NCBI GenBank assembly: GCA_024635755.1 | Contig: JAGXIF010000036.1 | Span: 119,787 to 183,786 of the forward strand | Source: Halothiobacillus sp. | GTDB lineage: Bacteria; Pseudomonadota; Gammaproteobacteria; Halothiobacillales; Halothiobacillaceae | Length of the DNA: 64,000 bases | Direction of reading: 5' to 3' | Shown here: in pieces, positions 45,387 through 64,000 of the stretch | How the letters are laid out: each line of letters starts with the position of its first letter | How positions within the stretch are numbered: position 1 is the first letter of the stretch | Notes under the pieces: generated by a model | What the model was told of the DNA's origin: nothing | The model's database searches: none | The model's input: only the letters and a program-made list of their open reading frames with translations | Position numbers and translations under genes: made by a program

Positions 45387-46376
45387 ATGGACGAATCACA
45401 CGCAGTGGGCGGCACGAACCGTCCCGAAGGGCTTCCCCGCGCCGTGGTGTTGGGCGGCACCGGTTTTGTCGGGCGCCACCTGGTTCGGGAGCTATCTGAC
45501 CAGGGTTACGAAGTGGTGGTGCCCAGTCGCCATGCCGCCCGCCATCGCGACATGGGGTTGTGGCCGAGCGTGGTGCTTTGCGACATGAATGCGCCGGCAG
45601 ACTCGGATCTGGCCACGCAGCGCGATGCCCCGGCATTGCCGCTGTTGCTGGAAGGGGCGGACCTGCTGGTCAACCTGGTGGGCATCCTCAACGAGCCGCG
45701 TCACAACGGCAAGACCTTCGAGCGGGTGCACATCAAGCTGACCAAGGCCGCCCTGCGGGCCGCCGCCGATGCGGGTGTGCCGCGCTACCTGCACATGAGC
45801 GCGCTGGGCGCCGACGAGGAAGAAGGCGCAAGCTTCTACCAGCGCAGCAAGGGCAAGGCGGAGAACTGGGTGCACCGTTTCGGCCGCAAGCACGACATCG
45901 CGGTCACCAGTTTCCGTCCGTCGGTCATCTTCGGACCCGGCGACTCGTTCCTGAACCGTTTTGCCGATCTTGCCCGGATTATGCCGGGCGTATTCCCGCT
46001 CGCCTGTGCGGGGGCGCGTTTCTCGCCGGTCTACGTCGGTGACGTCGCCGGACGGTTCGTGCGCGCCATCGACGATGACAGCACCTTCGGTCAGCGTTAT
46101 GACCTCTGCGGCCCGCATGACTATTCCCTCGGCGACCTGGCGCGCTATGCCGCCCGCCTCAGCAGGCACCCGCGCTGGGTCATCGGCCTGCCCGACGGAC
46201 TCTCGCGCGTGCAGGCACGCCTGCTGGAGTTCCTGCCCGGCAAGCCGTTCAGTCGTGACAATTATGATTCCCTGCGTCGCCCCAATGTCTGTTCGCCCGA
46301 CCATCCGCGCGAGCCCACCCGGCTCGAGGACATCGCGCCGGGCTACCTGGGGAATGCGTCCCGCCGTCGCGGCTGA
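45387..46376 (+). CDS. NAD(P)-binding epimerase-like protein, NDUFA9-type SDR
   Basis: A 329-residue extended/atypical short-chain dehydrogenase. The Rossmann motif L-G-G-T-G-F-V-G-R-H is near residue 20, and S-F-Y-Q-R-S-K holds the Y-x3-K-like pair. The segments N-L-V-G-I-L-N-E and F-R-P-S-V-I-F-G-P-G-D match the complex I NDUFA9-like subgroup found in many Proteobacteria. Substrate is unknown. The Met at 45387 starts close to the Rossmann fold; the frame upstream is antisense to hemY. Confidence 0.82.
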   Translation: MDESHAVGGTNRPEGLPRAVVLGGTGFVGRHLVRELSDQGYEVVVPSRHAARHRDMGLWPSVVLCDMNAPADSDLATQRDAPALPLLLEGADLLVNLVGILNEPRHNGKTFERVHIKLTKAALRAAADAGVPRYLHMSALGADEEEGASFYQRSKGKAENWVHRFGRKHDIAVTSFRPSVIFGPGDSFLNRFADLARIMPGVFPLACAGARFSPVYVGDVAGRFVRAIDDDSTFGQRYDLCGPHDYSLGDLARYAARLSRHPRWVIGLPDGLSRVQARLLEFLPGKPFSRDNYDSLRRPNVCSPDHPREPTRLEDIAPGYLGNASRRRG

Positions 46377-54781: not shown

Positions 54782-55882
54782 ATGAAGGAATGGATGGAGC
54801 GTTACGCCGCCTGGTTGGGGATTGCCCTGGCGGCCGCCCTGCTGGTGGGCTGGATGGCGACCGGTGAATCGCCCCAGCCGGCGAGCGAGACGGTCGAGCG
54901 TCAAGAGACCGTGCGGGTCGGTCTGACCGACAGCCGCGCCGAGTCGATCGAGCGCGTGCTGACATTGCAGGGACACGCCGAACCCGAGCAGATCGTCCGG
55001 GTACGGGCGAAGACCGGCGGGGAGGTGCTGGAGACCCCGGTGGAGGAGGGCGCCATCGTGGCCGCGGGGGACCTGATCGCCCGCCTGGACATGAACGATC
55101 GCCAGGCACGGTTGAGTGAGGCGCGCGCCGCCGAGCGCGAGGCCCGCGGGGATTTCGAGGCGGCCGACAGGCTGGCCAATCAGGGCTTTCAGGCCCGCCT
55201 GCAGGTCGAAAGGGCCCGAGCCGCCCTGGAAGCGGCACGGGCGCGCGTGGCGGCCATCGAGATCGAAATCGAGCACACCCGGGTGATCACCCCCATTGGC
55301 GGCGTGCTCAACCAGCAGATCGCCCGGCGGGGTGATTTCGTGGCGAAAGGCGAACCGATTGCCGAGATCGTCGAGAACAATCCGTTGCGGGCGGTCGTCC
55401 AGATTCCCCAGCACCGCGTGACCGAGATCACCGAGGGCCAGACCGCCCGCGTGACCTTTTTCGATGACATGGTGCGCGAGGGGGTGGTCCGCTATGTCTC
55501 GGCCACGGCCGACGAAAGAACGCGCACCTTTCTCGCCCGGGTGCGCGTGGACAATCCCGATCGCGACCTGCCCGCCGGGACCAGCGTGACCGTGACGGTC
55601 CCGGTCGAACAGGTGCGTGCCCATGGCGTGACGCCCGCCCTGATTTCGCAGGACGAAGACGGCCAACTGGGGATCAAGGTGGCCGAGAAAGACGACGGCG
55701 AATGGCGTGCCCGCTTCATTCCCGTCAAGCCGGTGCGGGCCGATGCCCGCCAGGTGTGGGTCACCGGGCTGCCCGACGAAGTCCGCCTTATCACCCTGGG
55801 GCAGGGTTTCGTGCGCGACGGTGACCGACTCGATGTCAGCGCGACGAACGAAGCGGCTGGCGAGGGGGATGGCGGCTCGTGA
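54782..55882 (+). CDS. RND efflux periplasmic adaptor (membrane fusion protein)
   Basis: A 366-residue HlyD/AcrA-type adaptor. An N-terminal anchor helix (about 10-26) has no lipobox. A barrel-sandwich segment V-R-V-R-A-K-T-G-G-E-V, an alpha-hairpin (about 100-160) and the paired T-P-I-G-G-V-L-N strand follow. It joins the permease encoded next to an outer-membrane factor not seen here. The 254-bp region upstream holds TATACT at 54662-54667, a possible -10 without a good -35. Confidence 0.9.
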   Translation: MKEWMERYAAWLGIALAAALLVGWMATGESPQPASETVERQETVRVGLTDSRAESIERVLTLQGHAEPEQIVRVRAKTGGEVLETPVEEGAIVAAGDLIARLDMNDRQARLSEARAAEREARGDFEAADRLANQGFQARLQVERARAALEAARARVAAIEIEIEHTRVITPIGGVLNQQIARRGDFVAKGEPIAEIVENNPLRAVVQIPQHRVTEITEGQTARVTFFDDMVREGVVRYVSATADERTRTFLARVRVDNPDRDLPAGTSVTVTVPVEQVRAHGVTPALISQDEDGQLGIKVAEKDDGEWRARFIPVKPVRADARQVWVTGLPDEVRLITLGQGFVRDGDRLDVSATNEAAGEGDGGS

Positions 55883-58800
55883 ACGGCCTGCTTGCCCTCC
55901 TGTTCGGCCGCAGCCGCAGCGTGCTCGTCCTGCTCTTGGGGCTGTTGGCGGCGGGCGGGATGTCCTACGCCATGATCGCCAAGGAGGCGGCACCGGACGT
56001 CGACGTGCCGATCTACTTCATCACGGTGTCCTATCCGGGCATTTCCCCCGACGATAGCGAGCGGCTGCTGGTCCGTCCCCTGGAGCGCGAGCTGGCGGGT
56101 ATCGAGGGGCTCGACGAGATGTACGCCAGTGCCGGCGAAGGGTTCGCCCTGGTCCGGCTGGATTTCGACCCCGGCTACGACAACCGCCGCGCGCTGGCCG
56201 ACGTCCGCGAGGAGGTCGACCTGGCCAAGCCCGAGTTGCCGGCCGGCGCGGAGGAGCCCGCGGTCACCGAGGTCGACCTGTCGATGTTCCCGGTGCTGAC
56301 GGCCACGTTGTCGGGCTCGGTGCCCGAACGCACCCTGGTGCAGATCGCCCGCGACCTGCGCGACCGAATCGAGGCGCTGCCCGGCGTCCTCGAGGTCGAG
56401 ATCGGCGGGGATCGCGAGGACCTGCTCGAGGTGCTGGTCGACCCGCAGACACTCGAGACCTATCGACTCCCCTACAACGAACTGGTCGAGGCGATCGGAC
56501 GCAATAACCGTCTGGTGGCCGCCGGCGCTCTGGATTCGGGGGCTGGTCGCCTCTCGATCAAGGTCCCGGGCGTGATCGAGTCGGTCGAGGACGTGCTCGA
56601 ACTGCCGGTGATTGCGCGCGCGGGCACCGTGGTGACCTTCCAGGAAGTGGGCGAGGCGCGACGGACGTTCAAGGATCCGGAAGGGTTTGTCCGCATCGAT
56701 GGCGAACCGGCCGTGTCGCTGGAGATTCGCAAGCGCGGCGGGGCCAACATTCTCGACACGGTGGCCCAGGCGCGGGAGGTGATCGAATCGGCCCAGGCCG
56801 ATTGGCCGGGCGGGGTCGAGGTGCGCTACCTGCAGGACAGCGCCGAGGATATCCGTGATCTGCTCGGTGATCTGGAAAACAACGTCCTGACCGCCGTTAT
56901 CCTGGTGATGCTCACCATCGTCGTCGCGTTGGGCGGCCGCTCGTCCTGGCTGGTGGGGCTGGCGATCCCCGGTGCTTTCTTGAGCGGGGTTCTGGTGCTG
57001 CATCTGATGGGCTTTACCCTCAACATCGTGGTGCTGTTCGCCCTGATCCTGGTGGTGGGCATGCTGGTCGACGGGGCCATCGTGGTGGTCGAGCAGGCCG
57101 ATCGCTATCTGGCCGAGGGCAAAGGGCAGACGGCCTACTTGGCGGCGGCACAGCGTATGGCCTGGCCGATCATCGCCTCCGTGGCCACCACCCTGGCGGT
57201 GTTTTTCCCGCTGTTGTTCTGGCCGGGCCTGGTGGGGGAATTCATGTTCTACCTGCCGGCAACGGTGATCGTCACCCTGCTGATGTCCCTGGTCATGGCC
57301 CTCGTGTTCATCCCGGTCCTTGCCGCGACCTTTTCCCGGCAGCAGGTGGTCAGCCGGCCCGAACAGGTCCGACGCATCCGCGCCGCGGAGGCCGGTCGCT
57401 TCGACGAGCTCGACGGCGGCACGGCACGCTACGTCTACCTGCTGCGCTGGACCATCGCCCATCCCGGCCAGACGTTCGCGGCGGTGTTTCTGCTGACGGC
57501 CGGGCTGTACGTGGCGTACGGGGAGCTGGGGAAGGGCGTGGATTTCTTCCCCGAAGTCGAGCCGCGCTTTGCCCAGATCCAGGTGCAGGCGCGCGGGGAT
57601 TTCTCGGTCTGGGAGGCCGACGAGCTGGTCCGCCGGGTCGAAACCCGACTGTACGACCATCCCGCGTTCGAGACCGTCTATGCCCGCAGCATCGGGTCGC
57701 AGCAGGACCGGCTGGCACAGGACTATGCCGAGGACGTGATCGGCGTGATCCAGCTTGACCTGGTCGATTGGCAGTGGCGCCCGCCCGCTGCCGAGCTCCT
57801 CGAGCAATTGCGGGCCGATCTGGCCGACGTGGCCGGCGTGCGTTTGCAGTTTCTGACCGAGTCGAGCGGTCCTAGCGAGGGCAAGCCGGTCGTCCTGCAG
57901 CTCGCAGCGGATGATAAGGCCGACGATGTTGATCCCCTGGTCGACGCCGTGGAACATTTGCGCCGCGGCATGGCAGCGGTGGGTGGTTTCGTCGATGTCG
58001 AGGACGACCGTCCCCTGCCGGGTATCGAGATGCGCCTGGAGGTCGATCATCGCGAGGCGGCCCGATTCGGTGCCGACGTCAGCCTGTTGGGCAGCGCGGT
58101 GCAGATGCTCACGAGCGGACTGGCACTGGGCGGCTATCGGCCGGCGGATGCCGACGAGGAGGTGGATATCCGGGTGCGTTTCCCCTTCGACGAACGCAAT
58201 CTGGCCCAGCTGGTCAACCTGCGGGTGCCCACGGAAGCGGGTCTGGTGCCCGCCCGCAATTTCGTCGAGTTCGTTCCCGCTCCCAAGACCGGCATCATCA
58301 AACGTGTCGACGGGGCGCGCACCCTGACCGTGGAGGCGGACGTTGCCGCTGGCCGGCTGGTCGACGAACGGGTGGGCGCGCTGGAGGCCTGGTTGGCGGA
58401 GCACCCGCTCCCCGGGGGTGTGGATCTCGCCTTCCGCGGGCAGCAAGAGGATCAGGCCGAGGCGGGGCGCTTTCTGGCCGGCGCCTTCGCGCTGGCGATC
58501 GCCTTGATGCTGCTGATCCTGGTGACCCAGTTCAACAGTTTCGGCCAGGCGGTGTTGGTGCTCACCGCGATCGTGTTCTCCACCGGCGGGGTGTTGCTCG
58601 GGCTGATCCTGCGCGGTGAGGCGTTTTCGGTGGTGATGAGCGGCATCGGCGTGATTGCTCTGGCCGGCGTGGTGGTTAACAACAACATCGTGCTGATCGA
58701 CACCTTTAACCAGTTGCGGCGTGACGGCATCGAAACCGTCGATGCGGCCCTGCGTACCGGCGCCCAGCGCCTGCGTCCCGTCCTGCTAACCACCGTGACC

Positions 58801-59028
58801 ACGGTCCTGGGACTCGCGCCGATGGTCTTTGGTCTGACCATCGACGTGATGGGGCGGGAATTCTCTATCGGCGCGCCCTCCACCCAGTACTGGGTACAGC
58901 TGGCCACGGCAATCGCCGGCGGGCTGCTGGTGGCCACCCCGCTGACCTTGCTGTTCACGCCGTCGATGCTGGCATGGTGGGATCGGCGCGGGCAGCAGCC
59001 AACGGACGCGTCACCAACTTCAACCTGA
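55879..59028 (+). CDS. RND family efflux permease
   Basis: A 1049-residue RND pump with twelve helices and two large periplasmic loops. Start is GTG overlapping the adaptor stop. The TM4 motif reads V-G-M-L-V-D-G-A-I-V-V-V-E: only one of the two aspartates of AcrB-like pumps is kept, the second being Gly. The TM10-12 region includes G-I-G-V-I-A-L-A-G-V-V-V-N-N-N-I-V-L-I-D. Family features suit export of organic compounds more than metals (no metal-site Met cluster was noticed). Substrate unknown. A terminator follows at 59126. Confidence 0.9.
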   Translation: MNGLLALLFGRSRSVLVLLLGLLAAGGMSYAMIAKEAAPDVDVPIYFITVSYPGISPDDSERLLVRPLERELAGIEGLDEMYASAGEGFALVRLDFDPGYDNRRALADVREEVDLAKPELPAGAEEPAVTEVDLSMFPVLTATLSGSVPERTLVQIARDLRDRIEALPGVLEVEIGGDREDLLEVLVDPQTLETYRLPYNELVEAIGRNNRLVAAGALDSGAGRLSIKVPGVIESVEDVLELPVIARAGTVVTFQEVGEARRTFKDPEGFVRIDGEPAVSLEIRKRGGANILDTVAQAREVIESAQADWPGGVEVRYLQDSAEDIRDLLGDLENNVLTAVILVMLTIVVALGGRSSWLVGLAIPGAFLSGVLVLHLMGFTLNIVVLFALILVVGMLVDGAIVVVEQADRYLAEGKGQTAYLAAAQRMAWPIIASVATTLAVFFPLLFWPGLVGEFMFYLPATVIVTLLMSLVMALVFIPVLAATFSRQQVVSRPEQVRRIRAAEAGRFDELDGGTARYVYLLRWTIAHPGQTFAAVFLLTAGLYVAYGELGKGVDFFPEVEPRFAQIQVQARGDFSVWEADELVRRVETRLYDHPAFETVYARSIGSQQDRLAQDYAEDVIGVIQLDLVDWQWRPPAAELLEQLRADLADVAGVRLQFLTESSGPSEGKPVVLQLAADDKADDVDPLVDAVEHLRRGMAAVGGFVDVEDDRPLPGIEMRLEVDHREAARFGADVSLLGSAVQMLTSGLALGGYRPADADEEVDIRVRFPFDERNLAQLVNLRVPTEAGLVPARNFVEFVPAPKTGIIKRVDGARTLTVEADVAAGRLVDERVGALEAWLAEHPLPGGVDLAFRGQQEDQAEAGRFLAGAFALAIALMLLILVTQFNSFGQAVLVLTAIVFSTGGVLLGLILRGEAFSVVMSGIGVIALAGVVVNNNIVLIDTFNQLRRDGIETVDAALRTGAQRLRPVLLTTVTTVLGLAPMVFGLTIDVMGREFSIGAPSTQYWVQLATAIAGGLLVATPLTLLFTPSMLAWWDRRGQQPTDASPTST

Positions 59029-59183: not shown

Positions 59184-59825
59184 TTACCAGCGCAGCAGGC
59201 GAGGGCCGAGCAGGGCACCCAGCGTTGTCGGGATGAGGATGCCCAGGAGATACCAGAGCCCGATGAACGGCGCGCTCATCTCCGGGCAGTGCAGGCAGTA
59301 GACCAGTGCCGCGGTGGCACCGGCCAGCAGGCCGGCACTCGCGCCGGCCAGTCGCAGCCGGGTCGGGGCCAGTGCCCGCATGGCCCAGAGCGCGGTGGCC
59401 AGCAGCGGGGCCGAGAGCAGGGCGATCAGGAAGGGGCAACTGGCCCAGGTGTCGCCCAGCAGCAGCTCCGCGTGCCGATCCGGGGCGGCCCGGACGAGGG
59501 TCACCACGGCCAGTCCCCACATGATCACGACGGGGGCCGCTATGCCCGTCGGCAGCCGGCCGAGGGACCGCCCCGGCCGGCCCAGGCGCCAGGTGGATAG
59601 CAGCCCCGTGACCGCAAGCGCGGCGGCAAAGCCGACCTTGACCCAGAACAAGGGTCGGCTGGCGGCCTGTGCCAGATCGGGCCGCACGCCGAGCAGGGCG
59701 AGCATCAGCCCGGTGCTCAGCAGCAGGCCGACGATCAGTGCTAGGGCGAAGCGGCGCGCGCTTGCCGTCCGGTCGACGGTCACGTCGCCGGACGCCAGGA
59801 AGGACACCATGTCATCGGTCTTCAT
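59184..59825 (-). CDS. nrsF: NrsF/DUF1109-type anti-sigma factor
   Basis: A 213-residue inner-membrane protein with about six helices, of the DUF1109/NrsF family, which hold SigF-type ECF sigma factors inactive. Cysteines occur near the outer face (S-C-P-F and Y-C-L-H-C-P-E) and may sense oxidants; redox sensing by such cysteines has been proposed for NrsF proteins. The start overlaps the stop of the sigma factor gene (ATGA), the usual sigma/anti-sigma coupling. Confidence 0.88.
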   Translation of the reverse strand: MKTDDMVSFLASGDVTVDRTASARRFALALIVGLLLSTGLMLALLGVRPDLAQAASRPLFWVKVGFAAALAVTGLLSTWRLGRPGRSLGRLPTGIAAPVVIMWGLAVVTLVRAAPDRHAELLLGDTWASCPFLIALLSAPLLATALWAMRALAPTRLRLAGASAGLLAGATAALVYCLHCPEMSAPFIGLWYLLGILIPTTLGALLGPRLLRW

Positions 59826-60376
59826 TTTTCACCTCTGGAAGTCTCCCCCCGGATCAGTTTCGCCAGCGCCTTGAGTCCCCGATGGACACCGACCTTGACC
59901 GCCGATTCGGACATGCCGGTGCGTCGCGCGGTCTCGGCGACCGACAGGCCCTCGATCTTGGTGTGCACGATCGCCGACCTCTGGCGGTTGGGTAGGCGGC
60001 TCAGCAGGACGTTCACGTCGCGTTCGGCCATTTCGTCGTGCTCGGGGGCGCTGGGCTCCCGGGCGTGTTCGTCGTCCAGCGAATCGGTGCGTCGCTCGTG
60101 GCGTTCCCTGCGCCGCATCAGATCGACCAGCTTGTATCGGGCGATGGCGTAGAGCCATGCGGTGACCGGCAGGTCCGGGTCGTAGGTCTGGCGCTTGTTG
60201 TGGATGGCGAGCAGGCATTCCTGCACGAGATCCTCCACCTCGTCCGGCAGCCCGGTCAGGCGCCGACGGAAATACGAGCGCAGCAGATCGCTGGTGGCCT
60301 GAAGGAAGGCACGGTAAGCACGCCCGTCTCCAGTCAGCCCGTCGAGGAGCCGTTCCCGCAGCTCGTGTTCGCTCAC
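59822..60376 (-). CDS. sigF: ECF sigma factor, SigF type
   Basis: A 184-residue ECF sigma factor. Region 2 has D-E-V-E-D-L-V-Q-E-C-L-L-A-I-H and V-T-A-W-L-Y-A-I-A-R-Y-K; region 4 has L-P-N-R-Q-R-S-A-I-V and the helix-turn-helix L-S-V-A-E-T-A-R-R-T-G-M-S-E-S-A-V-K. GTG 60376 is chosen as start: it gives the family N-terminus S-E-H-E-L-R-E-R-L-L, whereas an ATG at 60400 lies inside the predicted -10 element of the gene's own promoter. Coupled to nrsF; divergent from the yedZ1-yedY1-mrpX genes it should control. Confidence 0.88.
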   Translation of the reverse strand: MSEHELRERLLDGLTGDGRAYRAFLQATSDLLRSYFRRRLTGLPDEVEDLVQECLLAIHNKRQTYDPDLPVTAWLYAIARYKLVDLMRRRERHERRTDSLDDEHAREPSAPEHDEMAERDVNVLLSRLPNRQRSAIVHTKIEGLSVAETARRTGMSESAVKVGVHRGLKALAKLIRGETSRGEK

Positions 60377-60395
60377 CTTGTTCGCACCATGCCAA

Positions 60396-60426
60396 CTCAT
60401 TCGTCGCGACCCCGACTCCGGTTACA
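60396..60426 (-). promoter_or_regulatory. Predicted SigF autoregulatory promoter
   Basis: On the minus strand TGTAACC (60426-60420), 16 bases, CGAATGAG (60403-60396). The same two blocks at the same spacing occur on the plus strand at 60483-60513. Transcription would start near 60390, before the GTG of sigF. Confidence 0.75.
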
Positions 60427-60482
60427 GAGCGATTGAAACACGGCCATTGCCCGGGGCGATCGGAGCGGTTTTTGTCACCGGT

Positions 60483-60513
60483 TGTAACCAACTGCCGAAT
60501 CCGGACGAATGAG
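60483..60513 (+). promoter_or_regulatory. Predicted SigF promoter of the yedZ1-yedY1-mrpX operon
   Basis: TGTAACC (60483-60489), 16 bases, CGAATGAG (60506-60513), identical in both blocks and spacing to the divergent sigF promoter. An AAC-bearing -35 and CGA-bearing -10 are usual for ECF sigma factors. Transcription would start near 60520, about 60 bases before the yedZ1 ATG. Confidence 0.78.
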
Positions 60514-60581
60514 ATGGGTAAGCCCATCGCGCAGACCGTCGGGCCGATTGCCCGAGATCGCCATCCAGCAGGAGTCCGCCG

Positions 60582-61229
60582 ATGAACACAACCGCTGCCA
60601 GCTCCACCGTCGAGCGGGCCGAGTCGAAGGCCCCAGGGCCCCGTCCTCGGGTTATACACCCGCGCTGGCTGCGCCTGACCCACTGGCTCAACGCGCTGGC
60701 GGTGGTGCTGATGGTGACCAGCGGCTGGCGGATCTATAACGCCTCGCCGCTGTTCGATTTCCGCTTTCCCGACGAGATCACCCTGGGCGGCTGGCTGGCC
60801 GGAGCGATCCTGTGGCACTTCGCCGCCATGTGGTTGCTGGTGGCCAACGGTCTTCTCTACCTGTCCATCAATATGGCCACGGGCCGATTCTGGCGACGTT
60901 TCTTCCCCCTGTCGCCGGGCGCGCTCTTAGCCGACCTGAAGGCCGTTGGCCACGGGCGCCTGTCGCACGCCGACCCGCGGTGCTACAACACCGTGCAGCG
61001 GGGGGCCTACCTGTTCGTCATTATCGATCTGGTGCTCCTGGTCGTCTCCGGGCTGGTGCTGTGGAAGTCGGTGCAGTTCCCGCTTCTGCGCGAGCTGATG
61101 GGCGGCTATGAGACGGCGCGCTACGTGCACTTCTTCACCATGGTCGCCCTAGTCGGTTTCGTGGTGATCCACATGGCGATGGCGCTGCTGGTGCCGCGCT
61201 CGTTGCTGCGCATGATTCGTGGTCGATGA
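60582..61229 (+). CDS. yedZ1: Cytochrome b561, membrane partner of the YedY1-like oxidoreductase
   Basis: A 215-residue b-type cytochrome with four helices. Candidate heme ligands are His34 (L-T-H-W-L-N-A-L), His79 (I-L-W-H-F-A-A-M-W), and histidines in R-Y-V-H-F-F and V-V-I-H-M-A-M. It would take electrons from quinol and pass them to the Tat-exported molybdoprotein encoded next. AGCAGGAG precedes the ATG. In Azospira suillum a cytochrome of this kind (YedZ1) supports the periplasmic methionine sulfoxide reductase YedY1. Confidence 0.85.
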   Translation: MNTTAASSTVERAESKAPGPRPRVIHPRWLRLTHWLNALAVVLMVTSGWRIYNASPLFDFRFPDEITLGGWLAGAILWHFAAMWLLVANGLLYLSINMATGRFWRRFFPLSPGALLADLKAVGHGRLSHADPRCYNTVQRGAYLFVIIDLVLLVVSGLVLWKSVQFPLLRELMGGYETARYVHFFTMVALVGFVVIHMAMALLVPRSLLRMIRGR

Positions 61230-61242
61230 GGGAGGAATCCGC

Positions 61243-61992
61243 ATGAACGAGCCAAAATTGGAGTCCCTTTTGCAGGACACCGGGCCGGCGCGGCCGGATC
61301 GACGCCGATTCCTGCGAGGCTCGCTGGCACTCGGCGCGCTGCCGCTGATCGGCGGCTGCTCGATCAGCGACGAGCCGCTGGTCGAAAAGGCCTTGCTGAA
61401 GACCTCGCGTTTCAACGACCGGGTGCAGGCTTGGTTGTTCGATCCCGAGCAGCTGGCGCCCACCTATCCCGAGTCGATGATCACCCGGCCGTTTCCCTTC
61501 AACGCCTACTACCGCCCCCACGAGGTGCCGCGGGTCGACAGCGAGCGGTTCCGCCTGCAGGTCGGTGGACAGGTCGCCGAACAGCGCCCGTGGTCGCTGG
61601 CCGAGCTGCGAGCCCTGCCGCAGACGGACCAGGTGACCCGGCTGATCTGCGTCGAGGGCTGGAGCGCGATCGGCAAGTGGGGCGGGGTGCGCTTCTCCGA
61701 TTTCCTGCGGCGCATCGGGGCCGATCTCGACGCCCGCTACGTGGGGTTCCGCTGTGCCGACGGCTACTACACCAGCATCGACATGCCGACGGCCCTGCAT
61801 CCGCAGACCCTGCTGACACTCACCTTCGACGGGCAGACGCTGCCTGCTCGCTACGGTTTTCCCCTGAAGCTGCGCATGCCGACTAAGCTTGGCTACAAGA
61901 ATCCCAAGCACGTCGAGGCACTCTTTGTCACCAACACCTACCCCGGCGGTTACTGGGAGGACCGGGGCTACAACTGGTTTGGCGGCAGCTGA
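61243..61992 (+). CDS. yedY1: Tat-exported molybdopterin oxidoreductase, YedY/MsrP-like
   Basis: A 249-residue sulfite-oxidase-fold protein. The Tat motif R-R-R-F-L-R-G (20-26) precedes a hydrophobic stretch ending L-I-G-G-C, so Cys39 may be lipidated. Cys136 in R-L-I-C-V-E-G-W-S is the expected molybdenum ligand. P-L-K-L-R-M-P-T-K-L-G-Y-K-N-P-K is also conserved in the family. It probably reduces methionine sulfoxide in periplasmic proteins or in the MrpX-like peptide encoded downstream. GGAGG precedes the ATG; the gene follows yedZ1 by 13 bases. Confidence 0.87.
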   Translation: MNEPKLESLLQDTGPARPDRRRFLRGSLALGALPLIGGCSISDEPLVEKALLKTSRFNDRVQAWLFDPEQLAPTYPESMITRPFPFNAYYRPHEVPRVDSERFRLQVGGQVAEQRPWSLAELRALPQTDQVTRLICVEGWSAIGKWGGVRFSDFLRRIGADLDARYVGFRCADGYYTSIDMPTALHPQTLLTLTFDGQTLPARYGFPLKLRMPTKLGYKNPKHVEALFVTNTYPGGYWEDRGYNWFGGS

Positions 61993-62067
61993 GCGATCCG
62001 CTCGGTACCGTCGAGGTGCGGCCGCGAGGCCGTGCGATTTTGAGCAAATCCGAAAGAGGGTATTTCC

Positions 62068-62364
62068 ATGAAGACGATGACTGTATCGATGATCTGTGCC
62101 GGCCTGATGACCATGGGCACCGCCGTCATTGCGGCCGATTCCATGGCGCAGGAGGATGTCTACACCACGCTGGCCATGTCGCACGAGGGCATGGAGGATG
62201 ACGAGATGGGTCCTGACCAGATGGATGGCGACGAAATGTCGGACGACCAGATGGGCGGGGACGACATGTCCCGCGACGACATGAGCGAGGACGAGATGGG
62301 CCGCGACGACATGGGCAAGGACGACGCGATGGACGACGAAATGGACGACGAAATGGAGTACTAA
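62068..62364 (+). CDS. mrpX: Methionine-rich acidic periplasmic peptide, MrpX-like
   Basis: A 98-residue secreted peptide. Residues 1-27 form a signal peptide ending D-S-M-A. The mature part is nearly all Asp, Glu, Met and Gly/Ser, with 13 methionines after residue 36. Ten of them (37 to 82) recur exactly every five residues in repeats such as E-D-D-E-M, G-P-D-Q-M and S-R-D-D-M. There is no other domain. In Azospira suillum MrpX is a sacrificial methionine pool that consumes hypochlorite and is repaired by YedY1. It ends the yedZ1-yedY1-mrpX operon, 75 bases after yedY1, with its own terminator. Confidence 0.85.
   Translation: MKTMTVSMICAGLMTMGTAVIAADSMAQEDVYTTLAMSHEGMEDDEMGPDQMDGDEMSDDQMGGDDMSRDDMSEDEMGRDDMGKDDAMDDEMDDEMEY
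62179..62355 (+). repeat. In-frame 15-bp tandem repeats coding for Met pentads
   Basis: About eleven imperfect 15-base units, each ending in GAC/GAG-ATG-type codons, encode the Met pentads of the MrpX-like peptide. The last two units are shortened to 12 bases. Such an array can gain or lose units by slippage and so change the methionine number. Confidence 0.8.
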
Positions 62365-62385: not shown

Positions 62386-62420
62386 ACCCGCCGCGGTCTC
62401 GTCGACGCGGCGGGTTTTTT
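62386..62420 (+). terminator. Rho-independent terminator after mrpX
   Basis: ACCCGCCGCG (62386-62395) pairs perfectly with CGCGGCGGGT (62406-62415) across a 10-base loop, followed by TTTTT. It ends the yedZ1-yedY1-mrpX transcript. Confidence 0.9.

Positions 62421-62496: not shown

Positions 62497-64000
<1,504 letters not shown>

Follow-up and report, generated by a model that had tools for sequence, protein, structure and literature searches.

Layout of the locus

The window analysed here is a stretch of 64,000 nucleotides from an assembly deposited as Halothiobacillus sp. (GenBank GCA_024635755.1, contig JAGXIF010000036.1, positions 119,787 to 183,786 of the forward strand). The locus under study lies at positions 59184 to 62364 of this window and consists of five genes in two divergent units, namely nrsF-sigF, encoding an anti-sigma factor and an extracytoplasmic function (ECF) sigma factor, and yedZ1-yedY1-mrpX, encoding a cytochrome, a molybdopterin enzyme exported by the twin-arginine translocation (Tat) pathway, and a methionine-rich peptide. 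All five open reading frames were found at the following window coordinates:

59184..59825, minus strand: nrsF (DUF1109), anti-sigma factor of 213 amino acids (PF06532, 238.1 bits)
59822..60376, minus strand: sigF, ECF sigma factor with Sigma70 regions 2 and 4, GTG start corrected
60400-60425, minus strand: SigF-type promoter motif of sigF-nrsF, GTAACC-N16-CGAA(T)
60484-60509, plus strand: SigF-type promoter motif of yedZ1-yedY1-mrpX, GTAACC-N16-CGAA(T)
60582..61229, plus strand: yedZ1, cytochrome b561-type membrane protein of 215 amino acids (PF01292)
61243..61992, plus strand: yedY1, Tat-exported molybdopterin enzyme and predicted lipoprotein (PF00174, alignment to 1xdq)
61990..62004, plus strand: HP1, small hairpin spanning the yedY1 stop codon, a weak candidate
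62016..62035, plus strand: HP2, hairpin GTGCGGCC-GCGA-GGCCGTGC in the yedY1-mrpX gap, a candidate mRNA element
62068..62364, plus strand: mrpX, methionine-rich pentapeptide-repeat peptide of 98 amino acids with a signal-like N-terminus (TIGR02953, below cut-off)
62387..62420, plus strand: inverted repeat with a T-run 3' of mrpX, resembling an intrinsic terminator (by eye, unscored)

An earlier sequence-only reading had described a complete five-gene module, which was borne out in that all reading frames are present, four are matched by profiles, and MrpX gives a match to TIGR02953 just under the cut-off. The gene identities, Tat signal, divergent units, and promoters given there were likewise correct when checked.

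The nearest named NrsF proteins are those of Guyparkeria (90% identity to Guyparkeria sp. 1SP6A2), and we place the host in Guyparkeria or a lineage very close to it. The start of nrsF overlaps the sigF stop codon. For sigF, the listed start (ATG 60400) overlaps the -10 element of its own promoter. Among six further Guyparkeria copies, five carry an ATG at the codon equivalent to GTG 60376 (L122, the most divergent one, shows no ATG there), and sigF was therefore moved to GTG 60376 as its most likely start. The yedY1 gene most likely starts at ATG 61243, which is preceded by a GGGAGGA ribosome-binding site, and not at GTG 61219.

For comparison, named loci were taken as the best 80 of at least 588 relatives, some of the loci being cut by contig ends. 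According to their titles, they derive mostly from betaproteobacteria, with few from Pseudomonas, Buttiauxella, and Thiorhodococcus.

Sigma factor switch and promoters

NrsF carries the DUF1109/NrsF domain over its whole length (E 1.1e-70, profile positions 1-204 of 204) and is encoded beside an ECF sigma factor that scores 251.2 bits against NCBIfam PRK12536 (cut-off 250), which is the composition of a SigF/NrsF (ECF16-type) pair. Cys130 and Cys180 of the window's NrsF are invariant across all 34 loci with NrsF and are the counterparts of C131 and C181 described for Caulobacter NrsF. A second NrsF was not found in the 2.2-Mb assembly, the copy at the locus being the only one detected.

The gap between the divergent units holds two perfect GTAACC-N16-CGAA sites facing outward, with their -35 boxes 58 nucleotides apart. 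When spacers of 14-18 nucleotides were allowed, GTAACC-CGAA matched three times in the window against 0.08 expected. The whole assembly has six matches to the motif, two of these six being the divergent pair and one the additional match in the window. The latter, a perfect GTAACC-N16-CGAA at 45484-45509 on the minus strand, lies within a coding sequence and looks like a chance occurrence.

The association of the motif with SigF was evaluated in the 77 of the 80 named loci with a YedZ1 match, searching within about 500 nucleotides. The motif faces yedZ1 in 18 of 23 loci with SigF and in none of 54 without, and it points away from yedZ1 in 16 of 23 and 0 of 54, respectively. Of the 12 host-family loci with SigF, 10 have the motif pointing towards yedZ1, and it has this orientation in 7/7 Guyparkeria-type loci (window counted). 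We infer that both sites of the window are SigF-dependent promoters. The contrast between the named loci (18/23 versus 0/54) suggests that one effector operon is used with and without SigF; in 54 of the 77 named YedZ1 loci, neither a SigF match in the stored stretch nor an upstream sigma-F motif was seen.

A site of the form GTAACCGATCG...CAA(C/T)CGAA, seen in L001 and L002, occurs in 9 of 11 genomes of the genus and was considered as a sign of a wider SigF regulon. It was not counted as SigF-dependent because it is also present in two genomes (G001 and G008) without a close YedY1 match.

Effector proteins YedZ1 and YedY1

YedZ1 matches the cytochrome b561 family (PF01292) with 86.9 bits, and its His34, His79, His183, and His197, conserved at 0.98-1.00 over 91 loci, are likely the haem ligands. 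YedY1 scores 104.8 bits against PF00174 (Oxidored_molyb) and has YedY (1xdq) as its best match in the PDB, with Cys144 aligned to the cysteine of CVEAWS in 1xdq and the C-V-E-x-W-S context retained. Cys144 and Cys179 are invariant in 94/94 loci; from the role of the corresponding cysteine in YedY/MsrP, we take Cys144 to be the molybdenum ligand. Together with the methionine-rich, putatively exported peptide, these predicted proteins place a b561 cytochrome, a YedY-type molybdoenzyme, and their peptide partner side by side, as in the effector operons of this kind. The same genome also encodes, at G000:C5:7792-8475, a protein distantly related to YedY1 (33% identity).

The N-terminus of YedY1 reads RRRFLRG...LIGGC, with a lipobox ending at Cys47 (numbered from GTG 61219). 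A lipobox following the RR motif and a hydrophobic stretch was present in 94/94 loci, its commonest form being L-L-T/S-G-C, and also in all 119 homologues with an RR motif among the 120 matches listed, the remaining one reading LLTGC. Because the RR motif, hydrophobic stretch, and lipobox are conserved across the loci, YedY1 is predicted to be a Tat lipoprotein, and the lipobox would anchor the enzyme in the membrane beside its electron donor. A literature search on YedY as a Tat lipoprotein returned no paper that, judged by title and opening of the abstract, dealt with this system.

Charge of the methionine-rich peptide

MrpX gave no match in Pfam, its sole match being TIGR02953 (penta_MxKDx), and a methionine periodicity as well as a signal-like N-terminus are visible in its sequence. 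After residue 22, it consists of 42% Asp and Glu and 18% Met, whereas Lys and Arg make up a fraction of 0.04. Net charge was calculated as Lys plus Arg minus Asp plus Glu per residue after residue 22, excluding the false methionine-rich reading frames of L080 and L107, and amounts to -0.38 for the window. The values range from -0.26 to -0.38 in the seven Guyparkeria-type loci versus -0.06 to +0.13 in 76 others, and seven database homologues of the window's MrpX are acidic as well (-0.24 to -0.33). Judged by residue composition, the Guyparkeria MrpX is thus polyanionic while its relatives are near neutral.

The G+C content alone does not account for the acidic MrpX because the 32 other loci with a G+C content of at least 0.64 are near neutral (-0.06 to +0.11). 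A general acidification of exported proteins was rejected as well; with crude gene calls and a simple signal rule, their mean charge was -0.058 in the window (n = 2), -0.029 in G009 (n = 14), +0.003 in G015 (n = 10), and -0.014 in G016 (n = 11), a shift that is small beside -0.30. Salt adaptation as the background of the acidic MrpX is a guess.

Hairpins between yedY1 and mrpX

The gap between yedY1 and mrpX measures 73-75 nucleotides in the Guyparkeria-type loci. From 83 gaps located, 58 distinct gaps of 62-90 nucleotides were used, HP2 was searched for in nucleotides 19-54 counted from the first base of the yedY1 stop codon, and expectations were derived from 200 shuffles. Stem scores of at least 11 were reached in 46 of the 58 gaps versus 11.8 expected (shuffle maximum 19), and scores of at least 13 in 33 gaps versus 4.4 expected (shuffle maximum 10), with 17 different 5' arms among these 33 strong stems. 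In the control stretches, i.e., the end of yedY1, the last 36 nucleotides of the gap, and the start of mrpX, stems were at or below chance; in the stretch 3' of mrpX, where terminators are expected, they were above the mean and within the range of the shuffles. In an alignment of 39 of the 46 passing gaps (A2; odd-sized loops left out), covariation of the 5-bp core was 0.127 versus 0.069 for shuffled alignments (standard deviation 0.015; a value this high was reached in 1 of 500 shuffles). Paired cells made up a far larger share than in slid versions, except for a slide of -3 (89% of only 75 cells).

Several results speak against an RNA hairpin. At a slide of -3, covariation still amounts to 0.115, calculated over fewer cells, and the inner GGC/GCC is nearly invariant in A2, so that a conserved DNA palindrome is possible. 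Further pair types do not exceed the shuffles (446 and 198 of 500 as high), nor do changes on both sides in an 8-pair version (161 of 500 as high). RNAalifold returned no consensus pairs for two gap alignments, and single-sequence folding gave weak z-scores (-1.3 for the window, mean -0.32 over 79 gaps). In addition, the gap sequences are related to each other, and the structure was found in the same sequences in which it was evaluated. The enteric copy L104 has a gap of 34 nucleotides and no such hairpin. Overall, the sequence comparisons lend moderate support to HP2, the covariation results being partly mixed. For HP1, stems were found in 30 of the 58 distinct gaps versus 6.9 expected when the stop codon was included, a definition chosen after a first test in which the stop codon was excluded and no enrichment was seen (2 versus 4.8 expected). 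Neither a family in Rfam matching the gap nor, in the literature search, a paper on an intercistronic hairpin beside a methionine-rich periplasmic peptide was found.

HP2 might be a conserved RNA element that uncouples mrpX from yedY1 by shielding or processing the mrpX mRNA, so that the peptide would be made in large excess over YedY1, with the Guyparkeria MrpX acting as a polyanionic methionine sponge beside a lipoprotein reductase. As a whole, this combined proposal is put forward tentatively, and we regard it as somewhat more doubtful than probable. HP2 may determine how much scavenger is made relative to reductase.

Distribution and conservation of gene order

Close YedY1 proteins (at least 85% identity) are encoded in 7 of 11 genomes of the genus, including that of the window; the four genomes without one include G001, which is 99% complete. 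Among 56 relatives searched, YedY1 of at least 66% identity was found in 13, all within the host family. A class-wide draw of 369 genomes yielded YedY1 matches with an E-value of at most 1e-40 in 11, of which three belong to the genus (window's included), so that YedY1 is patchy across the class.

Eleven of the 13 host-family loci have the five genes in the layout of the window, the two others being L127, where sigF scores and nrsF does not, and L129, which lies on a 4.5-kb contig. Of the 80 named loci, 21 hold all five genes, and 19 of these have the window's layout; L105 has sigF and nrsF swapped, and L109 carries sigF-nrsF downstream. On the downstream side of yedY1, where it was searched for, a methionine-rich reading frame follows in 69/80 named and 13/13 family loci, and it is combined with YedZ1 in 66/80 and 13/13, respectively. 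The sequence-only reading had considered that the order of the effector genes might differ from the known case and that a search of genomes for the five-gene set might reveal a separate lineage by this order. Neither idea held, as the named and family loci examined have the order yedZ1-yedY1-mrpX and the full layout is common to 11/13 family and 19/80 named loci. Nor is the gammaproteobacterial host new, carriers of the effector genes having been published, e.g., c3566-c3568 of uropathogenic Escherichia coli.

In the YedY1 tree, the seven Guyparkeria-type rows group together (100/100). The window's YedY1 shares 77-78% identity with matches that include betaproteobacteria such as Thiobacillus sedimenti, versus 66-73% with the YedY1 proteins of other host-family genera. 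A recent transfer of yedY1 from betaproteobacteria was considered and is not claimed; the tree does not settle the sister group of the Guyparkeria rows.

Relatives of YedY1 also occur in 221 of 72,556 plasmid records of PLSDB (E-value of 1e-30 or better), 58 of them from Escherichia and 13 from Klebsiella. Three enteric examples (L157, L158, and L159), one of them a 6.4-kb plasmid of Klebsiella variicola, have adjacent cytochrome b and yedY1 genes and insertion-sequence genes in the stretch, and an MXKDX peptide gene is annotated in two of the three.

The module is flanked in the window by an RND-efflux-like gene (by reading) at 55879-59028 (plus strand) and by a groEL-like gene at 62497-63996 (minus strand). 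A groEL gene lies directly downstream of the module in all six other carriers of the genus, and no match to the RND protein was found in the stretches fetched around these carriers.

Proposed function and alternative explanations

The module is a real, complete, and conserved example of an already known system. We consider it highly probable that its SigF/NrsF switch and YedZ1-YedY1-MrpX operon form a periplasmic methionine-redox cycle that is switched on by oxidants; its predicted task is to scavenge oxidants of the hypochlorite type. Built on the observed gene set and order, the promoter motifs with their link to SigF, the conserved cysteines and histidines, and the Tat-lipobox pattern, the cycle would run as follows. 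An oxidant would act on C130 and C180 of NrsF, and NrsF would let go of SigF. Going by the motif, SigF would then direct transcription of nrsF-sigF as well as of yedZ1-yedY1-mrpX from the GTAACC-N16-CGAA sites between them. Exported MrpX, the presumed substrate, would have its methionines oxidised instead of those of other envelope proteins. The resulting methionine sulfoxide would be reduced by YedY1, anchored in the membrane and supplied with electrons via YedZ1, presumably from quinol. Hypochlorous acid (HOCl) or chlorine as the stimulus is suggested by analogy with related systems.

Several observations weigh against this reading. The narrower profiles score low, with NrsF at 156.3 bits versus an equivalog cut-off of 300 for AntiSigF_NrsF (NF042994), YedY1 at 68.6 bits versus 207 for the MsrP equivalog (PRK05363), and MrpX, which has few lysines, at 38.4 bits and thus just below the TIGR02953 cut-off of 41. 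The search for a chlorite dismutase in the assembly (88% complete) gave no match, which makes it unlikely that chlorine species arise from (per)chlorate respiration; for the same reason, the module does not have to be linked with that metabolism. Finally, inducers vary among relatives, with chromate and cadmium described for Caulobacter and H2O2 for uropathogenic E. coli.

The locus might instead encode an enzyme set oxidising sulfite or S-oxides, which we regard as highly improbable. PF00174 has the fold of sulfite oxidase, Guyparkeria is probably a sulfur oxidiser, and there are PDB matches to sulfite oxidases along with weak NCBIfam matches to SorA (51.2 bits) and a soxC-type profile (37.3 bits). 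These scores are, however, far below the cut-offs of 600 and 420, and the best structural match is YedY (1xdq). To our knowledge, many hosts with these genes beside MrpX are not known as sulfur oxidisers. Another explanation is that the module answers to metals or to thiol stress in general. Chromate, cadmium, or copper would then free SigF, YedY1 would restore envelope methionines that have been oxidised or damaged by metals, and the polyanionic MrpX would partly bind metals. The Asp, Glu, and Met content of MrpX given above could serve metal binding, and Caulobacter crescentus SigF answers dichromate and cadmium, not reactive oxygen species, with yedY in its regulon (PMC3511200). Yet the targets described there (YedY, DUF692, DUF2063, DUF2282, and DoxX genes) name no methionine-rich peptide, and the window's gene set is that of the HOCl-responsive bcrXQP system of Brucella (PMC8315932); we rate a metal response as unlikely.

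Peroxide-first repair would make YedZ1-YedY1 chiefly a repair system for envelope proteins, with MrpX as an accessory. This is modelled on c3566-c3568 of uropathogenic E. coli, where similar proteins encoded in the same order protect strain CFT073 against tert-butyl hydroperoxide (PMC8550376), and YedZ1 occurs without a detected MrpX in 11 of the 80 named loci, some of whose contigs end there. The wide retention of the methionine-rich reading frame downstream of yedY1 runs counter to an accessory role, and the E. coli copy is described as being under a two-component system, not SigF (PMC8550376). We find this explanation quite improbable for the window. The oxidant-induced methionine-redox cycle directed at hypochlorite-like oxidants is the preferred reading.

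Comparison with known systems

With MsrP/MsrQ (YedY/YedZ) of E. coli, the locus shares a YedY1 that aligns to 1xdq including CVE.WS; it differs in that YedY1 scores below the MsrP cut-off, has a lipobox, and is partnered by a b561 cytochrome (PF01292). E. coli MsrP is not known to carry a lipobox, and MsrQ is another type of cytochrome. The SigF/NrsF-MrpX-YedY1-YedZ1 system of Azospira suillum PS, studied by Melnyk et al. in 2015, reportedly scavenges hypochlorite. The proposed match of the window to this hypochlorite module agrees with the kinds of gene described for it, i.e., sigF, nrsF, mrpX, yedY, and yedZ (PMC5748585, PMC4623255), and thus with gene content as reported there. The name A. 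suillum does not appear among the matches listed (120 of 8000, and 80 of at least 588). As the assembly yielded no chlorite dismutase, membership in a (per)chlorate-reduction island is unlikely.

In Brucella melitensis, bcrS-abcS/bcrXQP is described as HOCl-inducible and protective, with a sigma/anti-sigma interaction and regulation reported (PMC8315932). As described there, it resembles the window in its divergent sigma/anti-sigma unit, in an operon for a methionine-rich peptide with MsrQ-like and MsrP-like proteins, in a pair of GTAACC...CGAA sites between the divergent genes, and in an anti-sigma factor with two conserved cysteines. It differs in its order X-Q-P, with the peptide encoded first and not last as in the window, and in a peptide of MXKDX repeats (PMC8315932), whereas the window's MrpX is nearly without lysine. 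The c3566-c3567-c3568 genes of uropathogenic E. coli CFT073, of which c3566-c3567 are reported to protect against peroxide, encode a cytochrome b, an MsrP homologue, and a small methionine-rich peptide, form one operon, and are numbered in the window's order; they differ in their H2O2-responsive control by the two-component system OrhKR, SigF/NrsF not being mentioned in that account (PMC8550376). Caulobacter crescentus shares the consensus GTAACC-N16-CGAA, a two-cysteine NrsF, and yedY as a target, although the targets reported are spread over several operons (PMC3511200).

A methionine-redox module of the SigF/NrsF type is hereby placed in Guyparkeria. The lipobox of YedY1, the lineage with an acidic MrpX, and the candidate hairpin at a fixed place are details that go beyond what the cited reports, as far as described above, contain.

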